DNA of 64,000 bases from Cucumis sativus (Eukaryota > Streptophyta > Magnoliopsida > Cucurbitales > Cucurbitaceae). The stretch spans positions 4,402,001 to 4,466,000 of the forward strand of contig NC_026659.2 of NCBI RefSeq assembly GCF_000004075.3, written 5' to 3'. Under the pieces are notes generated by a model that searched no databases, was not told where the DNA came from, and saw only the letters and a program-made list of their open reading frames with translations. Positions 4,150 through 46,456 of this stretch are shown here, piece by piece (the stretch's first letter is position 1; each line of letters opens with the position of its first letter). The translations under genes and the position numbers were made by a program.

Positions 4150-4482
4150 TCAAAATTTTGAAATATCTTAGTAGCTAGAGGAAAAAAAAAAGCAAAAGTG
4201 ATTCTTGTAGTGGCGGTGAGCAAAATAGGAGTCGCCTAAATTGTGAAGACGGAGTTGTGGGAGAGCAATACAAGTGTCGTGCTAGTAGGTGAAACGATGG
4301 AGTGTTGCATCCTAGATGGTGATGGTCCAGTAGCCGAAAGCATCACTAGCTAGCTTAAGCTCTAACCTGAATAGCATGGAGCGTGTGAAATTCTGTGTAA
4401 GTCAGCAAGGACCACATTAGAAGACTAAGTACTCCTGGATGATCGATAGTGAAGTAGTGCCATAAAGGAATAGTGAGTTGGA
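4150..4482 (+). other. Nuclear plastid DNA insertion (NUPT): 5' part of chloroplast 23S rRNA
   Basis: The segment follows the 5' third of plant chloroplast 23S rRNA. Recognisable blocks are CTTAGTAGC near 4168, GTGGGAGAGCAATACAAG at about 4257-4274, GTCCAGTAGCCGAAAGCATC near 4325, CAGCAAGGACCAC near 4403 and ACTCCTGGATGATCGATAG near 4430. Compared with the plastid sequence as I remember it, many differences are C to T or G to A, as expected for methylated nuclear DNA after transfer. It is a non-functional fragment of roughly 330 bp. I see no plastid sequence on either side, so the ends are approximate. Confidence 0.88.
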
Positions 4483-6035: not shown

Positions 6036-8243
6036 TTAATTGTCTTTTATAAAATTAAAATCTTTATTCCTAATGAAGTTTAAAGATTCATCATAGATCC
6101 AACTATACTTCTCCATGAAAGGATTGGTCAAGGATTGAGGAGGGTAAGAATCAATACAATCCTTCCATACATTTTCATCTTCCAAATCTCTCATCACTTC
6201 CCATGCACAATTATTACACTTGAATCCTGCTCCAAAGCTTATCATTAATAATCTCTCTCCTTTCTTCAACCTCTTCTTTGCTTCCATGTACCCGAACACG
6301 TACCAAAATCCTTCACGTAAACAATGTCAAGCTATCTCAAATTCATGTCTTATTAACTTCTTGTCTATAATATAATTTTGCTATTTTTTTCAAACTTTCC
6401 TTTGAAGTTTTATCAACCCATTAGAAACGATGTTTAGAATGCTTCAAAACACTTCATATTTTGGGAAAAAAAATGTTTTCATTTTAAAGTTATGTTGTTC
6501 TAACCATTCTTTTACCAAACTACTCTTCCTCTTCTTTATTAAATCTACCCTTTTACCTGCAGATGAAGTGTTTCCGAATCGATGCAGTGCCATTCGAGCT
6601 GGCTCAAGATCGTAAGCATTGAGGCCCAAGCTCTTCCCAACGCTGTCAATAACAGCCCTCCCGCCGGGGTGAATGCAGAAGTGATCGACACCCGTCTTAA
6701 GATTCAAACCTGTAATTGGACCTTGACGTAGACCACCCCCTCCTGATCCCATGGCAGCTCCTTTTGGTGGTTTGTTCTTTTGAACAAAAGAATTAGCTAT
6801 AACATAACGAAGCAACTCTCTCAATGGCAAAATCTTTGGCACCAAAACCCTTAAATTCATTGCAAATATTTTTGAAGCTGCTTTTGGGAGGTTCTTTGTT
6901 AGCCTAAACCCACGATACCCTCGATCATCTTCAACCTTTCATACAAAATATAAATATAATTTAACTAAATTATTTTCTAGTATAACAAAACAAACTCAAA
7001 TATTTACGAAAATAATTCAATAATAATCATCATTAATTTTTTAAAAATATAATTCCATTTTTTATATATCCTTAGATTCCTTTTTATTACTATTATATAT
7101 ATATATAGATGAATGTTTGAGACTTTTTTAATATCTTTTTTAGAGAATGTTTGGGATTTTTTTAAATATCTTTTTAGAGAATGTTTGAGAATTTTTTAAA
7201 ATATAAATAAAAACAAAATTCTTTACTATACCCCTTTATTTTATTTGAAGTTTAAAAATTAGATATCCAACTATAAGGTCAATATTCAAACATTTATCAT
7301 TGTTATTTGAGCACATGACTCAATTGGTTTGTGTATATATAGATATATAGAATGTTTATCTATTAAGTCTTCAATGATAAAATGTTTCGTAATAATATTA
7401 TATTAAGAATGGAAAGAAAAAGGATGAAATTAAAATCAGTTAATTGATTACCTGAATACAACATTGGTAAGCTTCATCATTTGCACCAAGATGGGATCGA
7501 ACCAAACACTTGAGCTTCAACATGGCTTGATGTTTCAACTCTCTTTTATTAGTGAAAAGCATGGAACAACCACCCGAACGAAATAAACAATTTGAAAGAA
7601 CCATTTGTTTTTCCTTCCCAACATACCAGTTTGGTCCCATAGATTCAGTAGCAACAACAATGGCATAAGAATTATCATAACACTTAAACAAATTATTAAC
7701 CAAATCAATGGCGACAATGCTTGCACTGCATCCCATTCCTGATAGATTAAATGCCTTAATATCTTCCCTCATCTTGTAACGATTAACAATCCTAGACGTC
7801 AAACAAGGAGAAGGCGAAAACAACGACACGCTTACAACCAAGATTTTGATATCCGACGGGGAAACGAGAGTCTTTGCAAAGAGTTTGTCAAGCGTGTCGA
7901 AAATGATGTCATCCATCTCGGCAACAGCCTCACTTAACGTCGGGTTTTCTTCGTGGCCTTCAAGGACGTTTTTTGGGGCATAGGTGTGTTCGCCAATGCC
8001 AGAGCTGACGATTGTTTTGAGGAGAAATCGGTATTCTTCGAGGCCGAGGTTTTTGTTGCGGAGGACGATTTTTACGCAAGAATCTGTGTTGAGGGTTCGG
8101 GTTGGGTCGGTGGGTTTGTAGCATTGGTAGGCAAGCATGTAGCAGGAAGATTGGTTTTTCCATTGAAGGAAGAGCTTGAAGAGAGTGAAGATGGTGAAGA
8201 GGATAGTGATTAAACATAGTGCCATCATGAGTCCTCCTTCCAT
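6036..8243 (-). CDS. 3-ketoacyl-CoA synthase (KCS12/KCS19-like), three exons
   Basis: Condensing enzyme of the ER fatty acid elongase: joins malonyl-CoA to a long-chain acyl-CoA, the first step of very-long-chain fatty acid synthesis. Exons on the minus strand are 8243-7452, 6935-6557 and 6310-6036, joined in phases 0 and 1, giving 481 residues, a normal family length. One hydrophobic N-terminal segment (about residues 5-26) would anchor it in the membrane. The active-site cysteine is Cys172 in [10 protein letters not shown]. His349 and His353 lie in [15 protein letters not shown], His383 and Asn386 in [10 protein letters not shown]. All expected catalytic residues are therefore present. The start is the first ATG before the hydrophobic segment. 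The many family members with one or no intron make its two introns notable. A second, intronless KCS lies at 46.5 kb. Family certain; subgroup inferred. Confidence 0.93.
7111..7205. repeat. Three imperfect ~40-bp tandem units inside KCS intron 1
   Basis: The phrase GAATGTTTGAGACTTTTT followed by AATATCTTTTTTAGA occurs three times in a row with small changes. It lies in the first intron of the minus-strand KCS gene (6936-7451) and should not affect the protein. Confidence 0.7.
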
Positions 8244-10123
8244 TTTGGCTATGAGATTTAGGAGAAACGAAGGGTTTGTGTTTAAAAGTAGAAAAAAGAG
8301 AAAAAGAAAAAAAAATCTTTGTTGCTTATTGTTTGATCAACTAAGTAATTTGATGGGTTTCTTTTTTCTTCTTTTGGAAGAGAGAGTAGTGAATTCATGT
8401 TGTTTGGTGTTCTATGAATTTAAAGCCAAAGAAAGAGAGGGATTAGAATTAATGTTGATCACATCTTCCTTTGATTGAAAAAAATAATTATAATTTGTAG
8501 CTTTAGAGTTATATTTTCAAGGTAAGATTAAAGAATGGAGTATGTAGATGTCTCCTTCTAGTTATTATGTAAAAAAAATTGGAACCATTTTGATTGTTTC
8601 TCTGTCGTTCATTAAAGGATGAAAAATTGCCAATCAATGTTTTAGCTTTTCTTACTCCTCATCTCTCCTCTCACACAAACCAATAAGTACTAATGGATTG
8701 ATAATGTGTTATTATACACTACCATTTTTGGCGATAAAAGTAGAATTGATTAAATGCTCATTTAACAAAAGTTAAAGCATTAAATTAAAATTTCAAATAT
8801 CAACAACTAAAATGAGATCTATGCATGTATGAAGGTTAAAAGATCAAAATAAAAAATTTAAATAAATAAAAACATAGAAACGTTTCAATATGGGTTCAAC
8901 TATATGAACGGCCGGTGTACTATCGACTTCAATATTTAGTTTTGATCTCCACCTTATATATTGTCGAAGAATAAAAACTACCGTTTTAAATGGAACTACC
9001 CTCAATAAAAGAAATCATGTAGATGTATATATGTAATGAAATTAAACATGTGGTTGTAAAATATAGGTAGAACAATAATTTTGCTATATTATTTGATATG
9101 ATTGGAAGAATTTAATACAAATTTATTTGAGAGAGTGTGAAACCTTACTTTCTTTAAAGAATTTTATAACTAATTAGTGTATAAAAAAAGTGATAATTGA
9201 TTTATATGTTCTTTCTTAATATACACATGCAGGTAAGTTTACTTAAGTTCTATTCTTTTTTGTATAAACTATTATATTCAAAGTTTGTTTAGGGTTTTAA
9301 TCCAAGTTAACAATGGTAAGTACAAATTATAATGACAAACAACTCCTCTATGTATCAACAAGAAGATAAAAGAAAACTAGCAATTTTAATTCAATTTCAA
9401 TTTCTCGTGATGAGTATAGTTGTCATTTCGTATTATATATATAGAATAGGATCTCAACTTTAAACGACGTGGATGGTAACTTTAACATTCAAACCTAGTT
9501 TATTACGTTTATATTTGTGGTTAAAAGAATATTAAATTTGACGATTTGGAGTAGTTGAAATTTTAGAAAGGGATTGAAACCTTGGAAAGCATCTCATTCA
9601 TGTGATGGTTCTATTCCATTTTGTCGAGTGTAACTTCAATTTTGCGGTCCAATTTTTTACAAGATTATAGTGCTTTTTTTTTTTTTTTTTTTGTGTAATT
9701 TTAGTTCATTAAAATTTGAAATATGATACAAATATATTCAAATTGAAATTTTGAATATTAGTATTTAATAAAATGAATAAGAGTTTTAGGAATTGTGGAG
9801 TACAAAACTCCAAACTCATTTGTTTCTTAACCCATAAGAATTAAATGTGGTTTTAATTGGGCATTTAGAGAGAGAGGTGTTAATGGTGCTTTTAACCCAT
9901 AACAAAACTTTAAGCTTTTTCTTTCCCACAAGAAATATTATGTGTGTGTGTGAGGAAGAAAAAGAGAGTGCAACACAAGAGGTGTTAGCGTGAAGCACAT
10001 AGTGTCTTGAGCCCTTTTCTGTCGAAGAAAAAGCAAATTTGTGTCGAGAAGCCTTATGGGAGGAGAAGAAGAAATGCTCCAAACGAAAATTAAAGAATTA
10101 TTTAATTCTATCATCTAACTCAA
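8244..10123. other. Upstream flank of KCS and AT-rich intergenic DNA
   Basis: The first few hundred bases are the promoter side and 5' UTR of the minus-strand KCS; I cannot place a TATA box with confidence. The remainder has no recognised gene. A weak ORF of 88 codons at 9816-10082 on the minus strand matches nothing I know. Confidence 0.5.
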
Positions 10124-11043: not shown

Positions 11044-11174
11044 TAGGGACCAATCCTGTAGGAAAGGCCCTCCAAAAATAGGCGTATGCCGCTTTGAACG
11101 ACGAGCACACGGTATTCTTTAGTAAAAGGCGAAAGAATAGTTCGCTCTGTGCTCACCGCACGGCTCCGTGGCTT
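11044..11174 (-). ncRNA. U5: U5 snRNA gene, copy 1
   Basis: Spliceosomal U5 RNA, transcribed on the minus strand. Read 5' to 3' it has stem 1 (GCGGTGAGCACA pairing with TGTGCTCGTCGT using wobble pairs), the invariant loop 1 CGCCTTTTACTAAAG that holds the exon ends during splicing, the Sm-binding site CCTATTTTTGGAGG, and a 3' hairpin closed by GGGCC/GGTCCC. Just downstream, CAGTCTTAGTCAAA fits the plant snRNA 3'-box consensus CA-N3-10-AGTNNAA. The 5' end is set about 30 bp from the TATA box and is approximate. Promoter at 11196-11246. Confidence 0.93.
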
Positions 11175-11195
11175 TAAAAGGAATATGATGATGGG

Positions 11196-11246
11196 ATTAT
11201 ATAGTCACTGGATGAATTCACTTACCAACTTCTTTCCGATGTGGGA
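11196..11246 (-). promoter_or_regulatory. snRNA promoter (USE + TATA) of U5 copy 1
   Basis: On the minus strand the USE TCCCACATCG is at 11246-11237 and a TATATAAT box at 11203-11196, with 33 bp between them. A spacing of 33-34 bp is the plant Pol II snRNA type, while about 10 bp less marks Pol III U6 genes. A palindromic CCACGTGG sits further upstream at 11346-11353. Confidence 0.92.
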
Positions 11247-12880
11247 ACTATGACTTTCCAAGGCTATTTTTGTCTTTTTAACTTATTTACTCTTACTTTG
11301 GATGCTGCTCTATTTGTTCAGATATAAGAAACCAAACAAAAGCTGCCACGTGGTTTATCCCATACAGCACTCTATTTATTCCTTTGTTTTCTTTTTTTTT
11401 TTTTAATTTTTCTGTGGAAAATTATGAACTCTTTTTTGAAATTTTGCATATATATCTGAAAATCCATAATCAATGTTGGATGGAACACAGTAGATAAGAG
11501 GATGGATTTTAGTGTTCTAATTCATCTATTGGTGTAATAGCCCAAATCCATAAATTTTGGACGATGATGAGATGTGATGATAGTTTGGTGAAATATTGCG
11601 GTGTATTTGGATTATTTTTTAAAATATTTAATTTAAAAAATAAAGAATTAGAGTGTTTGGAAACTATTTAAAACTATTTTTTAAGGGTATTTTAAATCAT
11701 TTAGTTTAAACAAAAAAAAAATTTTAAATATTATTTTATTAATTTAATCCAAACGTAACTCATAATATGAAATTATTTAGCAATTATCCCAATCGAGTAT
11801 TTGTTTAAAAAAATAGCTAATAAGTTACCTATATGAAAACTTAGAAGATGTTATTTTGAATATATTTTGAAGTTTGTTCAATTTTATTATATAAAAATGT
11901 TGGTTCTAATTTTAATATTGGTAGTTACAATAATTTTTAAATTTAACTCAAACTGTGAGGTCTATGGTTCACTCTGATATAAAAGAAAAAATTGTATATT
12001 TACATGTATTGAATTTTCTTTGTAACAAATATTATTGTTATTTAACCAAGTTTAGTAAAAACTAACTTTGGATGAATACATTTTTAATTGAAAATGTATA
12101 GATTAAAATTGAATAAACATACATTAAAGTCTATCATCCAAAATAATACCTTAACCTAATTTAAATATAGAACATGTTCACTCATATATTGTTTGTTAAA
12201 AAAATATTGGGAATGATATGATATTTGGTTGAAGTTGTTTAGGAAATCCACGTTGGAACTAATTGGAGAGAAAAATATTGGAAGAGTATTGGGCTACCAT
12301 TAATGCATTGGTTGATTACTGAACACAGTTAGGTATTTATTTGTTGAATTGACCTATATGTGAAATTGTATTGGTGTAATGGCATATATCTCATATACAT
12401 TCCAATGTTTTAAGTTATGGAAGTGAAGTGTTTCAAAGAACAAAACACCAATTAGTTGCATGTCACTGTGATGTATGAAGCTTTGCAATTTATATGGTCC
12501 TCTAGTAATCATGTATTTTGTGTATGTACATCGATGATAATGTCAAACGCCAAAATATTCAAGATAATAAAAAAAGTGAGGATGATTAGAACGCCTGACC
12601 TACTAATTTTTATTTTCGTGGAACAATCTCGTCCAATATAGATTTTGTAGGTTAATTAGTATGTTCCAAAATTTAATAGTTAAAACGTTGAGCTTCCAAA
12701 CTAGATGAAGTATACATGTAAAAGTGACTCAAACTTTTCAAAATCAAAAGATATTACTTATAATTGATCGCTTGAGCTTTTAAAATTTGTTTGATCAGTC
12801 CAAGCATAATTTTTATGATTTTCTTTGGACTAAACAAGTAAGAATCAATATATTAGTATTTAATGCAAGGGATAAGATAT

Positions 12881-13464
12881 CCAACACCACACACTTCCAT
12901 TCATTTCTTTTATGAATTCGTTTCGACCGTACGGACGTATTTGAATTGACTTTTTATGTAAACCTTATAACTTAAAATTGTATCTTTAATTTAATATGAA
13001 TTCAATTAAGTTATTTAACAAAATATAACAAAGATGAGATTAATATCGAAATTTTAATTTCACAAATATATTTATATGAATTTGAATATTTGAAGATTGA
13101 GTTGATTAACCGTAAATTTTGTATTTTTAAAATAAGATTAAAATTAAGAAAGTTCATAAATATATAAATTAAAAATTAAATAATGATTAAATAATATTCA
13201 CACTTAAATTGATTAATTATAATGAGATATTTATAAGTTATAAATTTAAAAAATGATTAAATAATATTCAAACTATTAATTATAAATGTAAGAAGTTCAA
13301 GGAATGATTGAGAAAATTATAAATGAAAAAAGATTAAATAATATTCAAACTTAAATTAATTAATTATAAATGAGAAAAGGTTGAAGAATGATAGAGAAGA
13401 AAAGTTAAGAGTAAAACTTGATAACCTTTTTCCCAACAAGGGTTGGTTAATCTAACCCTTCCCC
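12881..13464. repeat. AT-rich spacer with degenerate internal repeats
   Basis: Within about 13180-13400 the phrase GATTAAATAATATTCA recurs with AAACTTAAATTAATTAATTATAAATG-like surroundings at least three times. No gene is seen. Confidence 0.5.
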
Positions 13465-13995
13465 CTAATACCCCATAAGAATTTAATATAAAAAAATATA
13501 GATCTATGATTAATTACTAATTTATGTTTAGATTAATTACATGCATAGATAAATATTTCGAAGTACATATTTTGCCTTTATATTTAAAAAGATATTCGCG
13601 TCTGCTTATAATTCAGTAACCACATCATTTGCAATACACCATCATAGTTCACTTTTCTTCTCCGCACTTTCAATTCTTCCTGCCCTTACCCATCCCGTTT
13701 CAGTCCTTTTCTAAAAGAAATACTACAATATTACATGTTTTTCTTCCCTTCCATTCTTTGTCATTTAAAAAAATCTATAATAATAAATTTTCTAATTAAA
13801 AAGTTAAGAGACCAAAAATCTTCAAGTCATCAACATAAAATTCAACAAGTGAAATACGTTATTATTAATTAAAAAGTCATTGATTTCAAAGTACTTTCAT
13901 TATAGAAAAACAAAATGCAAGTACGTAATTTCTACACAAATACTTACCGGCTCCTCTGTCACCTACAGATTTAATAATTTTGGTTCTTACTATTG

Positions 13996-14125
13996 TAGGG
14001 GCTCACCCGAAGTAAGGCCCTCCAAAAATAGGCGTATGCCGCTATGAGCGGCGAGCACACGGTATTCTTTAGTAAAAGGCGAAAGAATAGTTCGCTCTGT
14101 ACTCACCGCACGGCTCCGTGACTTT
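13996..14125 (-). ncRNA. U5: U5 snRNA gene, copy 2
   Basis: Same architecture as copy 1: loop 1 CGCCTTTTACTAAAG, Sm site ATTTTTGG and stem 1 intact, with a G-U pair where GAGTACA faces TGTGCTC. The 3' hairpin closes with GGGC/GCCC, so both sides have changed relative to copy 1 while pairing is preserved. It looks functional. Confidence 0.93.
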
Positions 14126-14145
14126 CAATGGGGAAGGATACAAAG

Positions 14146-14196
14146 TTTAAATAGGCACTGGACGAATTCCCTTACCAACTTCTTTCCGATGTGGGA
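14146..14196 (-). promoter_or_regulatory. snRNA promoter (USE + TATA) of U5 copy 2
   Basis: USE TCCCACATCG at 14196-14187 and TATTTAAA at 14153-14146, 33 bp apart (Pol II spacing). CCACGTGG palindrome at 14279-14286. Confidence 0.92.
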
Positions 14197-14866
14197 AGTT
14201 TTACTTTCAAATCTGCTTTTGCTTCCTTTATTTTTTTTCTTTTCTTTCTTTTAGGGTTGCTGCTCCAAAGGAAAGCTGCCACGTGGTTATTCTATTCAGC
14301 ATGGGCATTTGTTAATTTGTTTTATTTCTGAATTTCCCTTTCTTGAAAATTATAAACTCTTTTTCGAAATTTATGAAATAATTGAAGGTGTGAAAATCTA
14401 TAATCAATGTTGGATGAATACAATAAATTTAAAAGATAGAGAAAAGGATAGTTTTGAGTGCTATAAAAGATATATTGGTGTGATGTTGAAATTGGATGGG
14501 GTTGCTATCTTATGATGATGAAAAATATTTATATATCAAATATGGCCGATCACTCCAATATGTAATAAGTAGATAAATAGGAAATATATTTTTTTTTCCT
14601 TTTATTTTATAGAAATTTAGTTTAACTTTAGTTTTTTACTTTTAATAATTCAATTTCTCCCATATGTTATTTGATAAAAATTATTGAAAATCTTTTTGTA
14701 TTTCCTTAAACTTGTATAGAAAATCCCCCTTCCGAACTTGTTCAAGAAAAAAGATTGTGAGACAACTCTCATTAGTGCTTAACAATTTAGTGTTTGTATT
14801 GAATTAATCTACACAAGAAATCGTCACAAACATTTAGATATTAATGGTTAGTAAAGTGAAGTATTT

Positions 14867-14946
14867 AATAGGGTAAAACACCAATTAGTTGCATGCCACC
14901 TTCACTTAATAGGGTAAAACACCCATTAGTTGCATGCCACCTTGAG
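14867..14946. repeat. 40-bp direct tandem duplication
   Basis: TAATAGGGTAAAACACC begins at 14867 and again at 14907, each followed by ATTAGTTGCATGCCACCTT. Unit A has one copy of the corresponding sequence near 12444, so the duplication arose within unit B. Confidence 0.8.
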
Positions 14947-15299
14947 TTATGACCTTTGATCATCATGTACTTGGAGCATGTGAGTTGATAACAATTCAAA
15001 TGTGAAAATGTGGAGTGACCAATTAGTAAAGAAAATGAGTTGACCTTTTATATAGATATATATTTCTTTTTGTGCAACAAAGATTCAAATTCATTTGAAA
15101 ATTTTGTGGGTTCATAACACACTAGAAGAAAACTACCCTACAATGACAGTTATATATCTCAAAAAATGAATGGAAGAAAAAAAAACTGTCACGAAATATA
15201 AAATTTCGCGTTTTTGGCGGGAAAAGACGGAATTTTTCGGAAAACACTTTTCGTGACAGTTATTAACTGTCATAGAATGTTAGGGTTGAAATTTTTTTC

Positions 15300-15660
15300 T
15301 TTTTTCCTTTTCTTTTCTTTTTCCTTTTTCTTTCTTTTCCCTATTTCCTTCTTCCTCCCGTGCGTCCTTCCCCTTCTCCCCAGCCGCAACCGCCGCGCCT
15401 CTTCTCCTTCCTCCCGTACGCCGCGACGACTCCACCGTCTCCTTCTCCTTTCCTTCTCTTTTCTCTTTTCCTTCCGCCGTTCCCTTCCGTCTTTCTTTCC
15501 GCCGCAGCCCAGCCGCCCCATCCTTCCCCTTCTCTCCGTTCGCGAAGCAAAACCGCCACCGCTCCGCCGGTAAGCTTCTCTTCCTTATCTCTCTCTCTCT
15601 CTCTCTCTATGAAGTTCTTCATTGTCTCCATTGGATTGTTTCGCCGGTAAGATCTTATCC
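15300..15660. other. CT-rich, GC-elevated tract inside the CACTA element
   Basis: Pyrimidine-rich on the + strand, far richer in C than its surroundings, ending in a (CT)n run at about 15588-15608. ORFs across it (for example 15360-15650) encode low-complexity Pro/Ser protein and are probably not genes. It resembles the 5' UTR of a plant housekeeping gene, so it may be another captured fragment; I cannot name a source. Confidence 0.5.
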
Positions 15661-15753
15661 TCATTTCCAAAAGAGATGTCATGGCTAGTGTCGATTTCTT
15701 TGCAATCTTTAAAATTATTTTCTTTGTTTTCAAGAATTTGTGTAGGTTGGTGA

Positions 15754-16449
15754 TGAAACATTTTGGTAGCTTACAATGTGTTTGATGAAATGCCTCAATG
15801 AAGCATTTGGTTGATTTTTGATTGATTTTTGTTCGTTCGAATTAGGAAATCAAGGCCAAAGGAGATGTCATGGCTATGGGCTGAAGCTTTGAGAAGAAAA
15901 GAATGAAAAATGAAATGTGAGATCTTAAACTTTGTACTTTGCCTTAAGTTGTGTCAAACTAGTCAATAAAGTAACTTAACTACCAATTTGCCTTAAGTGC
16001 CGGGTTGTTGGGATTTGTTTGCTGTAATTTGTCTAGGGTTATGTGTGTTTGTGATGTGTTGTTAGTGAGTATGTTGAATTTTGTGTTCGAGCTTCCAGAT
16101 GTGAAACATTTTGGTAGCTTACAATGTGTTTGATGAAATGCCTCAATGAAGCATTTGGTTGATTTTTGATTGATTTTTGTTCGTTCGAATTAGGAAATCA
16201 AGGCCAAAGGAGATGTCATGGCTATGGGCTGAAGCTTTGAGAAAAAAAGAATGAAAAATGAAATGTGAGATCTTAAACTTTGTACTTTGCCTTAAGTTGT
16301 GTCAAACTAGTCAATAAAGTAACTTAACTACCAATTTGCCTTAAGTGCCGGGTTGTTGGGATTTGTTTGCTGTAATTTGTCTAGGGTTATATGTGTTTGT
16401 GATGTGTTGTTAGTGAGTATGTTGAATTTTGTGTTCGAGCTTCCAGATG
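15754..16449. repeat. 348-bp near-identical tandem duplication inside the CACTA element
   Basis: Bases 15754-16101 recur at 16102-16449 with only a few differences (for example GAGAAGAAAA versus GAGAAAAAAA, and TTATGTGTG versus TTATATGTG). Each copy contains, in one frame, NILVAYNVFDEMPQ followed by a stop. This resembles a pentatricopeptide-repeat motif, but the match is short and tentative. Confidence 0.92.
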
Positions 16450-16767
16450 TGAAGTATAATAAAATGTTATTTGTAATTGTTTTAAACTTGAAACGCCTTT
16501 GATATTTGTTATTCTCTTGTGTCATATGATTATGTTTCAGGACATCTACTGATTAAAATCATGAGACCTCATGCATACGTGTATACGCATAGTTATTATA
16601 TTTAAAAGTTATGATTTTGGTAATCATCATCATGGGTAAAGTTTCAGTAGTGGTTTACATGACACCAAGAGTTAAGATTAAAGAGAAAACGAGTGAGTTG
16701 TACACTTATAGAATGGTATTACTTTGGTTTAAGGACTTGTGAATGATCTATATGTTTTCTTTGTAAG

Positions 16768-17672
16768 AAGGATAACAAGGTGGAGTCGAGGTCCAGCAAG
16801 GGTGCAACACTGAATGAGCTGGTTGAGCTCAAAGGTTGTTCTTCCAGCCTATTTTTCGAGGTTAGAACCTTTTCATTGCACTGTCGTAATCTGGAATTTT
16901 TAAGGTACAATGTTTTCTAATTTTTATTTTTAATTAGATATAGGATGATAACATTTTGGTTTTATTCTTGTGGTGTATAACTTATAAGGATGTTTTAACT
17001 ATCCTTTTGCTTTTCATTATATTACTTTCCTATATGGCCTTCTCATCATGTTTGTACATTGCGATCATATTTTTCCACTCATTGATATTTTTTTCTCTAA
17101 TTCCAGTGCAGAAAACATAAAGATCTTTATCTATGTATGGCAAAGTGCCCTAGTGGGCCATCTGTGAAGTTTTTAGTTAATGCCATTTGTTTTCTCTATT
17201 GTTGATGACCATATCTGGTTCTGGAATTACCAGGTATGCTTTATTTATTTCCTACTTGCTACAGAATTTAATACTAACCATGATCATGCTTTATTTATAA
17301 CCATCACTCCGTTAGCAACACCACTTGAGGAACAATGCGTGTTTTTAGTGAAGTACGTTAAGGTATATATAGATAAATGTCAGAAGTGTCGTTCTTAAGA
17401 TATGAGGCATACAATCGTCATTAGGAAAGGAATTTGGCATGGCAAAAAATTAATTGATTTGAAGAGTTTGAGATTAAGCAGATTTTGGGGAATAGTTTTT
17501 AGGAGTCCTAGTTGGGGATCTTGCTATTTTTCTTTCTTATGTCAATGATTTCATTGTTTTTCTAGTTCACTGTATACATTTCCATATAATTGATTGTTAT
17601 CCTTTAAACTTACATGTTCAATTTTCCATCAACTGTTGGTATGAGAACCCACTTTATGTATCGCCAAACCAG
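16768..17672 (+). pseudogene. BRX1: Captured fragment of BRX1 (Brix-domain ribosome biogenesis factor)
   Basis: Four pieces inside the CACTA element match plant BRX1, a nucleolar factor for 60S subunit assembly. Piece 16768-16860 reads KDNKVESRSSKGATLNELVE and ends CSSSLFFE at a GT donor. Piece 17107-17182 reads CRKHKDLYLCMAKCPSGPSV then KFLVN; family members usually have Trp where this has Cys. It runs straight into 17183-17233, PFVFSIVDDHIWFWNYQ, ending at a GT donor, so roughly sixty family residues between these blocks are missing. Piece about 17640-17672 reads YENPLYVSPNQ before another donor. Introns are retained, so the fragment came from genomic DNA and not from an mRNA copy. The start, the middle and the end of the gene are missing: a pseudogene fragment. 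Confidence 0.87.
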
Positions 17673-19264
17673 GTTAGATTGATTGTCCAACTTTTTGATC
17701 ATTTGGGATTACACTTCTTCACACTATTATTTAATGATCGTTTGCCTAATGTAGTCCTCATGTGCTTCTTTTCATTTCATGGAATCAAGTGTTGAAGTTC
17801 TTGTTTGTGTTCTGTATTTTGTTGAGACATTGATTTAGTTACTCATTGACTGTACGTATGTGTTATGGATACTTATATTCATGTTGTCTTTGTAGGTTCA
17901 ACTGGAGTCGACAACTTCATGAGTTTTCTTTCAAAGAACATTTCCAGAGACGAACATTCTCGGTTGGTCGTTTATGCTTCTGCAGAAAATCTTGTTAGAT
18001 GTATTCTAATGCTATTTAAAATATTTTTTGATTAAGGGCTAGTATTTCGTACATGTGGATTATTGAAACTTGTATTAAGATGTACAAATATTATAAATCG
18101 TATTATAGTGTATATATATTAAAGTGTTGGCTATTTTTTTGTACATTGGTGTGAAACTTGTATAATTTCAAATTTGTCATTCTCAGCTACATTATTGTCA
18201 TTCTAATGGTTCGTGTAATGGTGGAGTTGCAATATATTTGACTGGAAAAAATGTCGTCACTAGCAAAACAATGACATTTAATGTTATCGAAAAACTGTCA
18301 CGATTGCACAATCGTTGACTGGAAAAAAATGTCGTCAATAACTAAACAATGACATTTTTACAAAAAAAAACTGTCGCGAAAAACATATTCATGACAATTA
18401 ATACATGTCACGATAATAGAATTCGTGACAATTATTTAACTGTCGTTAATAAAGAAATGATGATAGTTATTGAATGTCATAAAATAAATTATGACAGTTA
18501 TTGAATGTCGTTGAATGTTGATTAACGACATTTATTTCATGTCATAAAATAACCTATTGCGACAGTTTTCAAAAACTGTCGTCGAAGGCCTTTCCATGAC
18601 TCCCGCTTCTATGACTGAAAATAACTGTCGCGAAATCCGTTCGCGACAGTAAATAACTGTCGTCGTAGACCACTTTTGTACTAGTGACAATGTTTCAAAA
18701 ATTAATAGTTAACGTTGAGTTTCCAATTGAAATGTATTATACATACTCAAAATTTGTTAGCATTAAAAGATATAACTGAGCTTTAAAATATAAATTTGCT
18801 TGTGTGATCAATCCAAGTACTTTATAGTTTATAGCTTCAATTTATTATGGTTGCTTTCAAACTAAGCAAGTTTGAATCAATATATAGGTAAGGTAAAACT
18901 TGGAGTGTCTTAACTTTATCTATAGATTTAGATATGTTCCGATCGAATATAGCAAGTAGCACAAATAAGGAAATGAATTAAAAATTGAACACAACAATAA
19001 AATACATATCATAGCAAATGTTGATTAGTCAATTAGTAAAGTTTGTCCTTTAATGACCGTAATTGATAGTCGTTATTAATAATAACAATTGGTAACACAT
19101 TTTTTAAATTGAAAGTCACTTGTAATGACAACTATAAATTATGAGTGTTATTACTGATATCTTTCAATTTTGAGAAATTGAAAGGAAATCTTTGAAATGG
19201 TAGTTGGACGTGAGCTTTTTAGTTTGTTTTACCAACTTTTGTGCTATATAGGCAATTCTTTTAT

Positions 19265-19580
19265 CATTTTTTATATGTTTAATTATTACAAAATGTTTCT
19301 CGACTTTATGGTTTATGTCAAAAACATTCATAAACTTAAAAAAATTTAAGATCGAAGTTTTTAAAATGATCTTAAACTTTCGAAAATGGTTCAAAAACAT
19401 CATTACTATTAGTTTTTTATGAAATCCATTAAAGCTTTCTTTCAAAAATACTTCAATTATTAAGAAGTTCATAAACACATTTAAACTTTTAAAAAAAATA
19501 CTTCCATTAATCCAACATCCACTATAAAAATCAAAATTTGAAGTTAAAACTACGGTGGTAAATTTTCATCGATGGGTTTA
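19265..19580. repeat. Dispersed AT-rich repeat, copy 1 of 2
   Basis: Collinear with 21060-21340: both contain CTTTCGAAAATGGTTC-like sequence, a GGTTTTTTATG/GTTTTTTATG block, AAGTTCATAAACAC and TTTAAACTTTTAAAAAAAAT, then a block with AAGTTAAAACTA. Moderately diverged; family unknown. Confidence 0.6.
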
Positions 19581-20196
19581 GGGGGCGGCTGGGCATTGGT
19601 GCACAAAACTGTGAGATTAGTTGGGTTTAGGTAGGATGCCAATGTGTGCTGCGGACGTGAATAGACATGCGCCCTGGTAAGAGGGCATATCAAGTCTTTA
19701 ATATAAAAAATATAGTGCAATGATTAATTACTAATTTATGTATAGATTAATTACATGCATAAATAAACATTTCAATATACGTGCAATATATAAATTCAAG
19801 TATATATTTTGCCTTTATATTTAAAAAATATATGCATCTACTATATAATTCAGTAACGACATCATTTGCAATAAGTTGATTTATTATCAATCAGCTCTCC
19901 ATACACCATCATCATACTTCACTTTCACTTCCTTTCCTTACCTTCCCGTATCAATCATTTCCATAAAATAATATAATATTACATGTTTTCCTTCCCCCCA
20001 ATTATTAATCATTTTAAAAAAACTATAACTCTGCGTCGTAAACAAGATTGTAACTGACTAATATCTCAGCAACATAACCATAAAATATGATAATCTGAAC
20101 CTTACTCTTAATATAGAAGGCAAATACGTTATTAAAATACAAAAGAATACGTTACACAATGTTACGAGTAGATTTAAAAATTGGTACTTGGTATTG

Positions 20197-20325
20197 TAGG
20201 GACCCACCCGAAGGAAGGCCCTCCAAAAATAGGCGTATGCCGCTATGAGCGGCGAGCACACGGTATTCTTTAGTAAAAGGCGAAAGAATAGTTCGCTCTG
20301 TGCTCACCGCACGGCTCCGTGTCTT
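20197..20325 (-). ncRNA. U5: U5 snRNA gene, copy 3
   Basis: Intact U5: stem 1 GCGGTGAGCACA/TGTGCTCGCCGC pairs over 12 bp with one wobble, loop 1 CGCCTTTTACTAAAG, Sm site CCTATTTTTGGAGG and a 3' hairpin with GGGCC facing GGTCC. It works as the reference copy for this cluster. The RNA ends are estimated from the TATA distance and the 3' hairpin. Confidence 0.94.
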
Positions 20326-20346
20326 TCAATTGATATGTACAGCGAG

Positions 20347-20396
20347 TTTAAATAGGCACTGGACGAATTCACTTACAAACTTCTTCCGATGTGGGA
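20347..20396 (-). promoter_or_regulatory. snRNA promoter (USE + TATA) of U5 copy 3
   Basis: USE TCCCACATCG at 20396-20387 and TATTTAAA at 20354-20347, 32 bp apart. CCACGTGG palindrome at 20472-20479. Confidence 0.92.
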
Positions 20397-20804
20397 AGTT
20401 TTCCTTTCAAAAGCTGCTTTCGCTTTGTTTATTTTCTTTTTCTTTTGGGTTGCTGCTCCAAAGGAAAGCTGCCACGTGGTTACTTTTTTGAGGCATTTAT
20501 TAATATGTTTTATTTTTGAATTTATGTTTCTTGAAAATTATAAACTCTATTTTGAAAATTGTGAAATATTTGAAGGTGGGAGAAAATGTATAATGAATGT
20601 TGTACAATAAATTTCAAAGATAATAAAAAGGATGCTTTTGATTGCTCTAAATGATATATTGGTGTGATTTTGAAATTGGAACGGTTTGTTATCTTATGGT
20701 GACGAAAAACTGAGATATTTAATATATTTACATATATAAAGAATAAAAATAGAAAAAAAAAAAAAGCTAATTTAATAAAGAAATATATCTTTATAAATGA
20801 AATA

Positions 20805-20808
<4 letters not shown>

Positions 20809-20868
<60 letters not shown>
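20809..20868. repeat. (AT)n microsatellite, about 30 units
   Basis: Uninterrupted AT dinucleotide run of about 60 bp. Other shorter runs occur near 33752, 37225, 49085 and 60262. Confidence 0.97.
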
Positions 20869-20873
<5 letters not shown>

Positions 20874-21059
20874 AGAAAAATAAGAATATGTAAGACTCAT
20901 TTATATTGTATATAAATAATGAAAAAAGTGTGAAGCGAGCAGAATTTATATATATATAAAAGAGAAAAATGTAAGGTGCAGGATTCACTTTATGAAAGTC
21001 GTGTACCCCATTTACAACTTTGCCTACAAACACTTATTTTTGTTAATAGTTTTACATAG

Positions 21060-21340
21060 TCAAAATTTACATTATTTTTTTAAAAAAAGTTCAAAAAGAT
21101 CAAAATTTCAAAAATAACCTTAAATTTTCGAAAATTGTTCAAAAATATCGTTGCTATTGGTTTTTTATGGAAGCCGTTAAAATTTTGTATAAAAATACTC
21201 ATGAACTATGAAAAGTTCATAAACACGTTTAAACTTTTAAAAAAAATTAAAACTACTTCCATTTTTCCAACTCCCACAATCAAAACAAAAAAAAATTAAG
21301 TTAAAACTATAGCTCTAAATTTTCAACGATATGTCGATAT
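21060..21340. repeat. Dispersed AT-rich repeat, copy 2 of 2
   Basis: Matches 19265-19580 in the same orientation, with the shared blocks TTTTCGAAAATTGTTC, GAAAAGTTCATAAACACG and AAGTTAAAACTA. Confidence 0.6.
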
Positions 21341-22660
21341 ATCTATGAATATTTTCACATTTACATTGCTTCAATAGCAATAGAAAAGGTGAATCGATAT
21401 TTCCATTACAAAATAAAAAAGTCATGAACTACAAAAATAAACATAAAATGACACATATTCTAGTATAAATAGAAGACATGTATACTTATTTGAAAATAAT
21501 AAAATATTTGTTTACTACTCCAAATTTATTTTATTTTTATAATTTTTAAGAAATATCCATTGATCAACATCAATATTTTAAATCTTGGTTAAAATATAAA
21601 ATTCCATAAACTTTCACGAAGTTTAAAAAACAAATCTCCTGAAAACATACTAAAAACACAACCAGTTAAATTTTTTTAAAAAAAAAATCTTACATTAGTA
21701 GATCTATCAAACTATATGTTAATAGTCGAATACATTTCGTGATCTATGAGTGTACGTTAAGAGCAATCAAATAAATTTAAAACTAAGATTTTAACTTAAA
21801 ATTTTGTTTTTATTTTAGTTGGTGAGAAAATCGTTCTAAATTTTGAATGATTGAAAGTAATTTTTAAAAAAGAAAAATGTAAACTTAAAGTTATTTATAA
21901 AATATTTGATTAGTTTAGAGTTGTTTTTTAAACAAAATTTTAACGTTTTCTCTCCTAACCGAAATATTTTTTAAAGTTTATGGCTATTCTTTAAACTTTA
22001 AAAAATTGAAGGGTGTTTTTCTACTCAAACAATTTGTTTTTTCTTTTTGTAATTTAAACTGTGTTATATATTCTATTTCTTGTGGTTAAGTATGATTTAT
22101 GCAACTTGTTCCCGAAAAAGAAAACAAAGATATAAATGGGTGTATAGAGTTGCAATGAAAGAAAACAGATGGTATGTAAATGTTACATTTATAAACAATG
22201 AAAGAAAAAAAAATCACCAAATAGTTATTCCAACCACTAAGATGGGTATTAATTTTACACTTTTGAGTCTACCTAGTAGTATATTGCTATGATATAAATT
22301 ATTTAGTCTACTTTAGTTGGAGCATGTGTTAAGCACATGGAAGCATTGAAATATATAAACATATATATATAATTCATTCCATCATATTTTGCCTATTCAT
22401 CACATTCAAAATTACTCACATTTTACCAATTTTTGAGGGCCAATTAAATTTTAATTTCAGCTCTTCCATTCAAATTTAATTAGAAACAAATGAATGAGAA
22501 AAAAGAGATGATGGGACAGTAATTTACATAAATATAACACATTCAAAATATTTATAGTATGTATAACAAATTAACAAAATTTCATGACTGCGATCATTTT
22601 TTCAAAAATTTCATATATGTCGTCGTGATTTATATCTTATTTGTGATTTATTAGTCATGA
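21341..22660. other. AT-rich intergenic region
   Basis: No gene or clear repeat structure is visible. Small ORFs such as 22080-22292 have no recognisable similarity. Confidence 0.5.
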
Positions 22661-22664
22661 TCTC

Positions 22665-23115
22665 TCTTAGTGCAATTAAGGCCCAAGATCAAATAAAATA
22701 AAGGCAAAATTATTTCATTCCAAGCCATCTCAGGCAATGTATTCCCAAGATCGAATAATATAAAGGTAAAATTATTTCATCTGATGTCACTAAGTCCCAA
22801 GATCCAATAACTAAAGAAAGAATTTTTTCATCCCTAGACATCTATGGGCATTGTATACCCGAGATCAAATGAACTAAAGGCTTCGGGGCATTTCGGTGCA
22901 ACTAAGGCCCGAGATTGTGTATCATGATTTACACGTGATCGTTTAAATTTGAAAGTCATTGTTTTAAAATAAAGTACAAGATCGTGTAGATCTACACTTC
23001 TGTCTTTCATATCAGGTCATCTCGGTGCACTGTATTTTGATATCAAATGAATTAAAGTCATAATTCTTTCATCTCGAGACATGATATGTCCGAGATAGTG
23101 TATTAAAATTTACAC
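22665..23115. repeat. Degenerate tandem repeat built on a CCCAAGATC-AAATA phrase
   Basis: Units of very roughly 60-70 bp recur: (C)CCAAGATC or CCGAGATC followed by AAATAAA-like sequence, AAAGGCAAAATTATTTCAT, and a CATCT-GG-CA-TGTAT block. Examples start near 22682, 22747, 22797 and 22860, with weaker ones near 22910 and 23035. Unit length varies. No family known to me. Confidence 0.65.
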
Positions 23116-23305
23116 GATCGTGTAGCTGATTTATCACGTATTGACTGGACTAATTTTTGTACTTTATATTGTTATTTATATTTAAAAAAAAAACCCTAAA
23201 AGACATTATCACGTGTCTCTTTTTTATCATATTGTCACTGAGATAAGGTTGATTAAATTCAATGAAAATTGCAATGGATGACTATTTTAGAAATAATAAT
23301 TAAGG

Positions 23306-23500
23306 ATATAACAACATTTTAAAAAAGTTGCAAATATAGCAAAACTATCACTAATAGACTTGTATCGCTGATAGATTTCATATGGTATATCAGTGATAGA
23401 CCAATATTTGCAACATGGTCTATCAGTGATAGACTTATATCATTTATAGAATTTGACAATTTTTGCTATATTTGCAAATTTTTTAAAATTGTGCTATATA
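23306..23500. mobile_element. MITE-like element with inverted ends, family 1 copy 1
   Basis: Left end TTTTAAAAAAGTTGCAAATA (23317) is mirrored by the right end, read on the minus strand as TTTTAAAAAATTTGCAAATA (23488); both continue inward with TAGCAAAA. The inside carries several palindromic CTATCAGTGATAGAC-type motifs, so the RNA would fold into a long hairpin. Related copies are at 31165, 38361 and 54142. Confidence 0.72.
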
Positions 23501-24700
23501 CTTAATTAATTTGAATTTAATTACTAAATTTGCAACAATCCCTAAATTCAACAATGATTTAGTCATCCGGGCTCGATGTTCAATCCAATTCAGGACACGT
23601 AGTAAAGAATTACTCAGAATATGTTGGGCTCTCAACCCAAACCCAACGTCAAATTCTTGGGCCCAAAAGGTAATTGGATCCAAGCCCAGCTAAGACATTT
23701 GAAAACCCCACAAAGGTATACTTTATGATCACTCGTTTTAAGGTAAAATCCAATCTTTGAAGATTTGAAAATTGAAAACTAAGACAATAACATCTCTTTT
23801 GTTCTTGATGAGTTTAGAGCTACAAATTCAAGAAAACTTGGACGATTTAAAGTTTTATGTTGAGAGAAGGCATAAAAAAAACATTTATTAGTGAATTTAC
23901 AACTCAATCAATGGGTAGAATAATCAACTTTTATCTCCCTCCAATGACCCAATCGGAGCACAAGAGGAGTTGCAGTACCATGTCTTCGCCAACTCAATGT
24001 AGCCATGAGGCATCCCATTCAGCACTATTATTCATCACTTGATTCCATTTCTTTTATAAAATATTCAACATGACATTAAAAGGTAATTAACTCCACAATT
24101 TAATTATTCACTCAGTATAGTTAAAAGAAGTGTTTTAATCAACACTACAACGATAAGAAAGAAAGCAAATTAGACTATTAACAATTCATTATTACATACA
24201 CCCAACGAAAGGAGTGACAAAAGAGATAGAAAAATTTAAATATAGCAAAATGTGGGGTTGAGAACTTTGAAGGTTTTATCAGGCAATCCTAATGAAATAT
24301 TGTTAGATTAAAATCCTTTCCAAAATTAGAAAGAAACAATTGTGATTCATATTTACTAACGTAGGTTATAGGGCATTTTTTAAACCCATTTAAGGCCAAT
24401 GCCAATAGAGGGAGATGGAGCATTACTAAAAAACCTGGCTATATATTATTATGTAATGTTCACAAAATCCAATTCATTACCAAAGAAAAAGATTGGGCCA
24501 TAACCCCATGTCTATTAATTGGGCCCAATCTCCCCCTTGAAAACTCTACAAAAAGAGTTTTAGTGATTGAACCCTTGCTTAGTTCAATTGACAACTACAA
24601 AATTTAAGCCAAACACCTATGCCATTTAATTTCAGTTCGAAATAAGATAGTTTCACTTCGATGAACGTTGGTAATACAAGATTTCATAAATAAATTTGAT
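23501..24700. other. Intergenic region, nothing recognised
   Basis: Contains GGGCC/TGGGC motifs near 23628-23660 and 24495-24530 and a few short ORFs, but no gene that I recognise. Confidence 0.45.
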
Positions 24701-24701
24701 G

Positions 24702-24831
24702 TAAGGACCAATCGTAAAATAGGTCCCTCCAAAAATAGGCGTATGCCGCTTGAAACGGCGAACACACGGTATCCTTTAGTAAAAGGCGAAAGAATAATTC
24801 GCTGTGAGTTCACCGCACGGCTTCATCCTCT
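24702..24831 (-). ncRNA. U5: U5 snRNA gene, divergent copy 4
   Basis: The most diverged copy. Loop 1 CGCCTTTTACTAAAG and Sm site CCTATTTTTGGAGG are unchanged, but the stems differ: GAAC now faces GTTC where the others have GAGC facing GCTC, a compensatory pair change, and ATTCTTT faces AAAGGAT with a G-U pair. The 5' leader reads GGATGAAGCCGTG instead of CACGGAGCCGTG. No clear 3' box follows. It could be a variant U5 still under selection or an early pseudogene; the paired changes favour the first. Confidence 0.82.
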
Positions 24832-24852
24832 CCAACTGAAAATGTCGATTGC

Positions 24853-24903
24853 ATTATGTAAGCAGAGGCCACGTTCACTACGGAATTTCTTTTCGATGTG
24901 GGA
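24853..24903 (-). promoter_or_regulatory. snRNA promoter (USE + degenerate TATA) of U5 copy 4
   Basis: USE TCCCACATCG at 24903-24894. A weak TACATAAT at 24860-24853 sits at exactly 33 bp, where the other copies have their TATA box. No CCACGTGG upstream. Confidence 0.8.
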
Positions 24904-25736
24904 TTTTCAGCTTCCAAGGGTATACTCTTCTTCAATTTTCAGTTTTCTTTTTTGCTTAACGTTGCTCTTCTTCTAAATAAACCAACGGAATGTCTTCATT
25001 TTGGAACTCATTCTTTCACTCTTATTTATCACTTTATTTATTTTCTCTTCTACTTTTATTAAAAAATATTCAGTTTTTCCTTCGGGAATAAGATCTAAGC
25101 TTCCCTTTTCTTTTAACTTTGAAGTTCGTGATCCAAATTTGATGAATTGATGGTGAATAACTTATAAGGATTCCAAAATACTTCGATGGGCCATTGATAC
25201 ATCCATAAATTGGAGGATTTGATACATGATGAGGGCATGTTTGATACATGAAGATATTAGATGAAATAATGAAATTGGAAACGGTGAACTGAGTAGAAAG
25301 AAAGATTTAAAATTATGTTTTAGAAAAATTATAGTTGAAAATATAAATAAATAAAAGAGAAGGAATTAATATGACCTTAATTCAGTTCATACCTATGATA
25401 ACACTAAATTAAAGAAATGGGAAAAGATACACGTTTCAACTTTATACTTTATCACACATTCTATAATTTGAAGTAGAACTTGGATACTTTATTGCAATTC
25501 AATTTTTCTTCTTGAAAGTGTGTTAATTTTTGTTTATGAGATAAGAAAAGATTATTTATCCACATTTTCAAAGTATTACTACTTACATATTTGAGTCAGT
25601 TAACTGTTTTACATACCAATACACCATCATACTTGCCACCGATTCAATAATTTTCAAGTTAAGAAGCAATTTCACATAAAGAAGACCAGGCAGTACGTAA
25701 AAAGTAAGTAATAAATAAAGTTCGAAACTGAAATTG

Positions 25737-25866
25737 TAGGGACCAATCCCAAAGGAAAGGCCCTCCAAAAATAGGCGTATGCCGCTATGAGCGGCGAGCA
25801 CACGGTATTCTTTAGTAAAAGGCGAAAGAATAGTTCGCTCTGTACTCACCGCACGGCTCCGTGGAT
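25737..25866 (-). ncRNA. U5: U5 snRNA gene, copy 5
   Basis: Intact U5 with loop 1, Sm site and stem 1 (GAGTACA/TGTGCTC with one G-U pair), and a 3' hairpin GGGCC/GGTCCC. The flanks are unlike units A-C except for the words ATACACCATCATACTT near 25620, shared with unit C. Confidence 0.93.
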
Positions 25867-25887
25867 TGGAAGGGCATCGTGAGCACC

Positions 25888-25938
25888 ATTATGTAGTAGA
25901 TGGAAGGGTTGTTTGAAGTACTTTTATTCGATGTGGGA
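25888..25938 (-). promoter_or_regulatory. snRNA promoter (USE + degenerate TATA) of U5 copy 5
   Basis: USE TCCCACATCG at 25938-25929 and TACATAAT at 25895-25888, 33 bp apart. The TATA variant is the same as in copy 4. Confidence 0.85.
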
Positions 25939-28423
25939 GTTTCTTCTTCTAAAATGTTTTACTCAACTATTGGATGTTAGCTGTAATCCTCTATCAGTTT
26001 ATTTTACATTATTAAATGTATATTTTAAATTTTCTATTTTCTATTTTTTGGTTTTAAATTCTAATATGCTCTATAAATTAAAATTATATATATATATATA
26101 TATATGAATTATGATTAAATGATTATGAATAAGATTATTGTAAAAATATATAAGAAGAAAATATAATGACGTTTGAACATAAATTTAAGGATATACTAGT
26201 TTGTGAATAATAAAAATGATGAAAAATAACCAAGAGAATGGTACCTAATGGGTGTGAGAAAACTCCTAAATAAATTTGGGTAAAAACCATGAAAAAATGG
26301 AAGAATTTTACAATATAAAATATAGGTTACAAACTTTCTCTATTACATAAAAAGATGAAGATTAAGCAATTTATATTTTATGTCATGGTTTGTTGACTTA
26401 GTCTATCTCACTTATTTATATTCTAAAGAAGTGTGTGTAAACGCTTTGAGTTTAAAAGGGAGACATGAATAAACCGATGTCACATCTAAATAAGATGGAT
26501 CTAAGGTTTAAAAGAATTAAAAGTTACTATTTGTACCAATAAAGTGCACATTTTTCTTCGATGACTCAATCATAAAAACTTTAAAGTTAAACATGTTTGA
26601 CTTAGAATAATTTTATGTTGTTAGATTGTAGGGATCGTAGGAGAATGTCGAAAAATCAAATTCTGAATCTTGGACCTGAGAGTAATAATTCAACTTTTGA
26701 ACACTTTTATAGTATATTTTAAAAACAAATAATAAAGTTTAATGGTATTTCTTTTTAATTTTCTCTTTAATTTAATATTACTACTTTATTATTAAAAAAT
26801 GCACAAGTTTAAACAATAAGTTAAAAAATAAAATCCATAGTTCAAGTGAACCAAAAATCTTTTATTTAAATTTCCCACTTTTTATTGGACTAAAAGTGTT
26901 AGAAACAATAGAAATTTATACTCATTTTTAAAATTTTAAAAATTGCAAATTCAATAAATTTATACTTCTAAATTCTAAATTCTAAATGGTTTTTGTTTGT
27001 ATAGACTCATCATTGTTTAAGTTTTTTTTCTTAAAAAAAAACACTATACTTTGTAACGCTCGTTAAATAAGCAAATCAACCCTAAAATTATATATATAAT
27101 TCGCTAATAATTTACCTATCATTTTAAATTTTCAAACTTTTTTTAGTTAGAAGTAGATTTCTCTAATTTTGATGAACCTTTCCATTTTGAGACTAAATTT
27201 ATATAACTTAACTCGTAAATAAATATTTTTAACTTTATGATTAAAATTTTTCTCCTAAATCTTTGAAACTCATTCTAATAAAATTAACTTTTAAAATAAA
27301 CTTGTATAATATATAATTATAAATAAATGGGTCCATTGAAATAGTCCAAGTCGTTACTTATTAATCACTTTTTTGTTAGATTAAAATAAAAAATTCAAAT
27401 TTCATCAAAACTTTTCCAATCCTCACTTTTTATGTTTTGCTCTTTTAATAATTGAATTTTTTAAATAGATATCAAATTACTTTATTCTTATTAAGAAAGT
27501 TTAAAACATTGATGTTAACAGAAACGTTCAGGTTTCAATTATATTGGAAAATCAATAAAATATAAATATTTTAAAATAAGTTTATACTATGCTTACAATA
27601 GCTTTTTTTGTTGCTTATGAACTTTAATTCAATACAATGGATGATTGGAAACATTGGTTTATGTATGATGTAAGACATCAAGTCTATACAAATGTGTTGT
27701 AAGTTGTTGTCCACAAAAACTCAATAATTTATTAGTGGTAAGAGACCTGTGGTTGTGGATTATTGTTTCTTTTTTCCTTTTAAATAGAAGATATGTTATC
27801 TTACTACAAACTTCATTATTATATATTTACTTCTGATGTGCTTTGCATTCATATAATTTTTGTGGTTGGCTGAATAATTTATATACAATTTAGATGGAGT
27901 ACTTTTAAATAATATTTTGTTGGTGTTATTTTGGTGTTATACACAGTTCAAATGTCATCTTCTTGTTTCTTGATTAATTTATATACTGAATTGAAAATTT
28001 CATACCAAATCTTACTAATAAACTTCGAGTGTTAAAAGAAAAATATTTAAAATTCCAACTTAAAACTAAAACTTATAATATATGTGTGTTTAAATAACGA
28101 TTATTCTAGTAGAATAACAAATTTTTTACTTCGATTTATGCCGTCGGATGAGAATTGTATATTATTGTAATTTGGAAGTCTAAATAAAATTGGCATGGTT
28201 CATCAATTTTTATATTAACATTTTAATTGTATCAAATTACTCTTAATTGATCAATTAAATATTTGAATATCTATTACTATTTTAACCTCCAAGAAACTTG
28301 CCTATACATTCACAAACGAAACTTCTTACTAAATTGATGGTTAGCTTAGAATTTCATAAAATTAGACGGAAAGAACTAAACATTAAATATATATTATTAG
28401 GAAGAAAATTGATACTGAAATTA
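25939..28423. other. AT-rich spacer between U5 copies 5 and 6
   Basis: Nothing coding is supported. Poly-A/T runs and AT-rich sequence only. Confidence 0.5.
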
Positions 28424-28552
28424 TAGGGACCAACCCCGAAGGGAAGCCCTCCAAAAATAGGCGTATGCCGCTGAAGGCGGCGAGCACACGGTATTCTTTA
28501 GTAAAAGGCGAAAGAATAGTTCGCTTTGTGCCCACCGCACGGCTCCGTGATT
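28424..28552 (-). ncRNA. U5: U5 snRNA gene, copy 6
   Basis: Intact U5 loop 1 and Sm site. The stem keeps pairing through a G-U (GGGCACA facing TGTGCTC). The small hairpin before the Sm site is shortened to GCCGCCTTCAGCGGC. The 3' hairpin is GGGCTTCCC...GGGGTTGGTCCC-like. Isolated from the other copies by 2.5 kb. Confidence 0.92.
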
Positions 28553-46398: not shown

Positions 46399-46456
46399 CA
46401 CTCAATAGAATGAGAAGAGCCAACTGAAACTTGATCTCCTCACTCTCACTCTGTCC

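Follow-up and report, generated by a model that had tools for sequence, protein, structure and literature searches.

Several families of plant CACTA (En/Spm) transposons have been described in which the interior of the element holds DNA from host genes. The Tpn1 elements of Ipomoea nil are mostly non-autonomous CACTA elements with conserved ends, 3-bp target-site duplications (TSDs; one exception in 339) and an interior replaced by captured genic regions, and some of them are transcribed (PMC5105172). The soybean CACTA element Tgm-Express1 contains exon and intron fragments of host genes whose splice sites are used (PMC1947982). Pack-CACTA and other Pack-TYPE elements are non-autonomous, with terminal inverted repeats (TIRs) and captured gene DNA (PMC8903248), and a lettuce paper states that host fragments are frequently captured by CACTA elements. 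Here we describe an element at positions 15120-18686 of a 64,000-nucleotide (nt) stretch of cucumber (Cucumis sativus) DNA (NC_026659.2, positions 4,402,001 to 4,466,000, forward strand; the whole stretch is called the window, and all positions refer to it). It contains fragments of the Brix-domain gene BRX1 and interrupts an array of U5 small nuclear RNA (snRNA) genes.

The likeness to Tpn1 is one of structural features. Tgm-Express1 holds pieces of five genes and lies in an F3H intron, whereas here the pieces identified come from one gene and the element lies in an snRNA spacer. Tgmt*, also from soybean, shares the CACTA ends, the three-base duplication and asymmetric palindromic subterminal repeats, with four repeats in 159 bp on the left and 24 in 732 bp on the right, as against four in 171 nt and nine in 446 nt here (counted as a 6-nt core). 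However, Tgmt* is 20.5 kb long, encodes transposase and has another repeat motif (PMC2613891). The ends of Jozin from Chenopodium are similar in their first 13 nt (for example CACTAGTACAAAA) and are followed by subterminal repeats, and related Chenopodium CACTA elements carry captured gene fragments; unlike the cucumber element, Jozin has a different subterminal motif and the described Jozin elements retain transposase (PMC8978399). We hold it to be highly probable that 15120-18686 is a gene-fragment-carrying, non-autonomous CACTA element of the Pack-CACTA, Tpn1 or Tgm-Express type, inserted in a U5 spacer. Its boundaries are defined by the following features:

15120-18686, plus strand: non-autonomous CACTA (En/Spm) element with BRX1 fragments, 3567 nt, recognised by TIRs, TSD, subterminal repeats and an unoccupied paralogous site
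15117-15119, no strand: left TSD, ACA; the empty paralogous site has one 3-nt sequence, AGT, in its place
18687-18689, no strand: right TSD, ACA
15120-15156, plus strand: left TIR, starting CACTAG, complementary to 18650-18686 at 28 of 37 positions
18650-18686, minus strand: right TIR, ending CTAGTG, pairing with the left arm
15145-15271, no strand: left subterminal repeats, four ACTGTC/GACAGT; CpG observed-to-expected ratio 1.56 for 15120-15290
18241-18686, no strand: right subterminal array, nine ACTGTC/GACAGT, strongly palindromic by folding; CpG ratio 1.93
12642-12758, plus strand: empty paralogous counterpart of the insertion site, lying outside the element in the adjacent U5 spacer and identified by aligning the joined flanks

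The ends were compared with every other possible pair in the window, each CACTA being paired with each TAGTG lying 300-15000 nt downstream (n = 382). The 37-nt arms of 15120-18686, with 28 of 37 positions (76%) complementary, were the best of all pairs, the runner-up reaching 23/37. Identical 3-nt flanks occurred in seven pairs, and the next-best arms among these matched at 18/37. The duplication is 3 nt long (ACA); the 5-nt flanks do not match. Both ends of 15120-18686 are complete, and the element is a non-autonomous member of the CACTA (En/Spm) superfamily.

Both ends carry the subterminal repeats, direct and inverted, that belong to the CACTA superfamily along with TIRs beginning CACTA and a 3-nt TSD. 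The 13 copies of ACTGTC/GACAGT fall within 617 nt, four in the left 171 nt and nine in the right 446 nt, where 2000 dinucleotide shuffles of each end gave means of 0.06 and 0.26 and maxima of 2 and 3. Elsewhere, the motif is found once in the 2950-nt middle of the element and 11 times in the 60.4 kb outside it. Folded as single-stranded DNA, the right array had a z score of -5.73, and none of 100 shuffles was equally stable. The proper CACTA ends, the ACA duplication on both sides and the subterminal GACAGT arrays, all proposed in an initial annotation made from the sequence alone, are therefore borne out by these comparisons.

Six minus-strand U5 snRNA genes were identified with Rfam (87.0-91.5 bits), at 11052, 13999, 20200, 24704, 25745 and 28432. 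The array spans 11052-28544, with gene starts about 1.0-6.2 kb apart. By eye, TCCCACATCG is present in the 110-nt upstream stretch of all six genes; a stricter pattern for the snRNA upstream element, demanding A or G in front, matched one of the six. In an Arabidopsis survey that lists 14 U5 genes, U5.1 is duplicated in tandem once, U2 and U5 genes form one cluster, and a single region holds three U5 genes (PMC545797); by that standard, an 18-kb stretch with six of them may be out of the ordinary.

The spacer interrupted by the element is the one separating the second and third U5 genes. When its flanks were joined without it, they aligned across the junction to 12642-12758, in the spacer of the first and second U5 genes (71% over 121 positions). 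The local score was 81; none of 300 two-base-block shuffles and none of 248 other pieces of the window scored above 31. When the right flank was offset, zero scored highest among 13 offsets tested, the runner-up scoring 72. To the left of the insertion, 14854-14899 matches 12421-12466 and 14916-14952 matches 12442-12478, both at 84-85%, and a longer alignment, which carries no shuffle control, extends through both flanks. The array thereby offers, about 2.5 kb away, an empty site for the boundaries of the element. The simplest reading is that the element was inserted after the spacers had been duplicated; a clean loss from the neighbouring spacer is possible and would need more steps. The third U5 unit was considered as a further unoccupied site and rejected, the matching stretch being missing there (matches stop at 20709 and restart at 21080).

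Between the ends, four stretches resemble BRX1:

16768-16860, plus strand: BRX1 piece A (KDNKVESRSSKGATLNELVELKGCSSSLFFE), followed by GT, from the joint PDB search
16861-17106, plus strand: retained intron between A and B, GT...AG
17107-17184, plus strand: BRX1 piece B (CRKHKDLYLCMAKCPSGPSVKFLVNA), significant alone; its frame then reaches a TGA at 17203-17205
17186-17233, plus strand: BRX1 piece C (FVFSIVDDHIWFWNYQ), fused out of frame to B and followed by GT, the second aligned stretch
17640-17672, plus strand: BRX1 piece D (YENPLYVSPNQ), followed by GT, the third stretch, weak and collinear

When the element's +1 frame was searched without joining any pieces, stops being written as X, it matched six PDB sequences at E <= 1, all of them BRX1 or Brix-domain proteins (E 0.0011-0.11). 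Read together, pieces A-D gave six matches to BRX1/Brix sequences, with E values between 6.8e-16 and 1.5e-12, plus one chance match (E 0.99). The aligned stretches follow one another as in BRX1 (in chain 10zy_b, residues 72-115, 169-194 and 236-246). Piece B alone found the same six sequences (E 1.1e-4 to 0.015) together with two chance matches, and piece D, which is short and weak by itself, is collinear with BRX1. The element therefore holds host coding DNA between its ends, and the translated similarity to BRX1 on which the initial annotation had staked its reading is present in every match of the unjoined frame. A GT-AG intron is kept between A and B, and GT follows C and D, indicating that the source was genomic DNA and not a reverse-transcribed message. 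The annotated BRX1 exons with retained introns accordingly hold up as four collinear pieces with at least one GT-AG intron, captured at the level of DNA.

The copy is decayed in several ways. At the fusion of B and C about 60 residues are lost and the frame is shifted into the TGA stop. From C to D the loss is about 44 residues by 10zy_b and about 32 by 8fkp_SO, or roughly 30-45 overall, and 406 nt of other sequence occupy the gap. A Trp (LYLW/LYMW) and an Arg (IWVR/IWFR) are common to all five alignments listed among seven matches, and three of these five are near-identical chains of one protein; at these sites the element has Cys for Trp and Trp for Arg. Judged from its sequence, the copy is dead and unable to code a working BRX1, given the two internal losses, the frame break into a stop and the replacement of two shared residues. 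A coding BRX1 copy was ruled out on the out-of-frame B/C fusion and its stop.

No Pfam transposase family was found in the six frames of the element, by a scan that is insensitive to short remnants. Since this frame scan missed the BRX1 pieces too, it can rule out a transposase only if that is still fairly intact, and it is to this extent that the element lacks a transposase of its own, as is found in Pack-CACTA elements and as initially annotated. Most CACTA members are without transposase, which only autonomous members carry (PMC8195511); its absence is thus expected of a non-autonomous member and leaves the membership of the element in CACTA intact. Across the whole plus frames, no Pfam family was found at E <= 5. 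Two further features were recognised in the interior:

15291-15580, plus strand: pyrimidine- and CpG-rich stretch, 54.8% GC, CpG ratio 1.78, with a GGTAAG donor-like site at 15569
15754-16449, plus strand: tandem duplication of a 348-nt unit, with 2 differences between the copies

The CpG ratio is 0.29 in the BRX1 part and 0.69 and 0.84 in the flanks, in contrast to the high values at the two ends. We infer that 15291-15580 could be a transcribed leader exon, and a leader captured from another gene would suit it equally; GGTAAG recurs at 15646. Maize En/Spm carries a GC-rich leader, which this stretch may resemble. Among the matches listed in our literature search there was no account of that leader, and the term "downstream control region" was absent. 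Both differences between the 348-nt copies are G in the first and A in the second, and with so few differences part of the interior has changed recently. Two Pfam candidates below the cut-off were set aside, namely Calmod_bind_M (E 0.022; 15774-15866, minus strand, within the 348-nt repeat) and DUF4604 (E 0.31). The stretch 17892-18032, read as one piece, matched no Pfam family and no PDB sequence.

Several observations weigh against this interpretation. The element is known from one copy in one 64-kb window, about two thirds of its interior is without assigned origin, and the transposase scan has the limited reach given above. TSDs of 5 nt are given for rice and maize CACTA elements in the Pack-TYPE study, unlike the 3 nt found here (PMC8903248); three other sources give a 3-nt TSD for CACTA elements, the same as in 15120-18686. 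The paralogous site reads AGT where the occupied site reads ACA, and the left flank adds only modestly to the joined score, since on its own it scores 22, compared with 68 for the right flank. As to the cargo, piece A alone found BRX1 only at E 0.96, as the fourth of four PDB matches, which is not significant. The Pfam Brix model scored A and B together at E 0.0024 (18.3 bits, below the cut-off of 28.2) and gave nothing for A alone, B alone or C with D.

Within the window, no second copy of the element or of its ends was found. The end pattern, with one mismatch allowed, occurs at four places, namely the two ends themselves and two sites inside the element, and no BLAST match outside the element was better than E 0.016. 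A plasmid collection held no match to the element, viral contigs gave 13 pattern matches of which 0 were confirmed, and bacterial and archaeal genome contigs gave 0 matches to one terminal pattern; these collections hold no plant set and are therefore silent on copy number.

Sites of the two end types are common in the window (35 CACTA and 58 TAGTG), and matching 3-nt flanks arise in 7 of the 382 pairs, as would be needed if there were no transposon at all and the ends had come by chance to bracket an unrelated fragment of a BRX1 pseudogene. We regard this as extremely improbable and reject it on the comparison of pairs, where the combination of 28/37 arms with a matching duplication is unique; moreover, both ends carry subterminal repeats, and the uninterrupted paralogous site has its breakpoint at these ends. 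A genuine transposon could also have received its BRX1 DNA after landing, by nested insertion or local duplication, so that the fragments were never mobilised. The single copy in the one window that could be searched would allow this, and the 348-nt duplication attests to recent rearrangement of the interior. However, in CACTA elements described in the literature, pieces of this kind travel as mobile cargo, an indirect argument by analogy which would favour capture before insertion, and we consider late entry of the BRX1 DNA unlikely.

The element might instead act as a regulator, its RNA silencing or tuning the parent BRX1 gene. The element does have BRX1 pieces and splice sites, and for maize Helitrons, Pack-MULEs and Sireviruses a review reports that captured fragments give rise to small interfering RNA that acts on the donor genes (PMC13317346). 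The same review notes that selection may remove silencing of essential donor genes, and the anatomy of the element lends no support to the antisense or small RNA that had been envisaged, there being no long inverted BRX1 copy inside it and the pieces having a sense orientation with respect to the likely leader. Among the best 6 of 38 minus-strand matches to 16768-17672 within the element, the longest covers 44 positions (75%, E 1.4), the others being 14-19 nt long with E 0.032 at best; we take these matches as chance. Antisense RNA may arise by readthrough from outside the element. As a whole, regulation of the parent gene seems very unlikely to us, and an equally slim chance attaches to its specific form, in which a working leader (15291-15580, with GGTAAG) would yield a spliced sense BRX1 RNA, and from it small RNA against the parent gene, from within the U5 array. 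The proposal of a CACTA element with captured BRX1 DNA, family spread and an RNA effect is, in sum, partly supported.

As a non-autonomous CACTA element, 15120-18686 has kept the parts required in cis, the terminal and subterminal repeats needed by CACTA elements, and would have been mobilised in trans by an autonomous relative that supplied TNPA- and TNPD-like proteins. Subterminal repeats are the binding sites of TNPA, TNPD serves as the transposase, and both proteins can act in trans (PMC2613891, PMC5105172). The BRX1 DNA would occupy the former place of the transposase genes. Pack-TYPE elements may acquire DNA when two neighbouring insertions move together (PMC8903248), and the BRX1 DNA was perhaps acquired in such an event, two neighbouring elements moving as one. 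Transcription from the left end would yield a spliced chimeric RNA, sense in orientation and non-coding, and the element would be without BRX1 protein function.

The GC content of the window is 28.5%. Elsewhere it contains an Exo70-like gene and 3-ketoacyl-CoA synthase-like genes at 6141-8336 (minus strand) and 46409-47866 (plus strand), the former split into two open frames, by an intron or because it is broken. We read the base composition, the U5 genes and these protein-coding genes as those of a flowering plant. At 4131-4470 part of a bacterial-type large-subunit rRNA is matched (model positions 35-511 of 2925, 98.6 bits); we take this to be a decayed organellar DNA insertion. An inverted repeat at 23297-23508, with 48-nt arms that are 90% complementary and 116 nt between them, is possibly a hairpin resembling a miniature inverted-repeat transposable element.

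Among the matches listed in the literature search, no transposon with BRX1 or Brix-domain cargo was found in print. Gene-fragment cargo is a documented habit of CACTA elements, and the cucumber element is therefore a sound but ordinary new example of it. As a boundary-proven CACTA element with pieces of a ribosome-assembly gene, it extends the known pattern and does not alter it; it would gain greater weight only if its RNA affects BRX1 or if its family spreads the same pieces.

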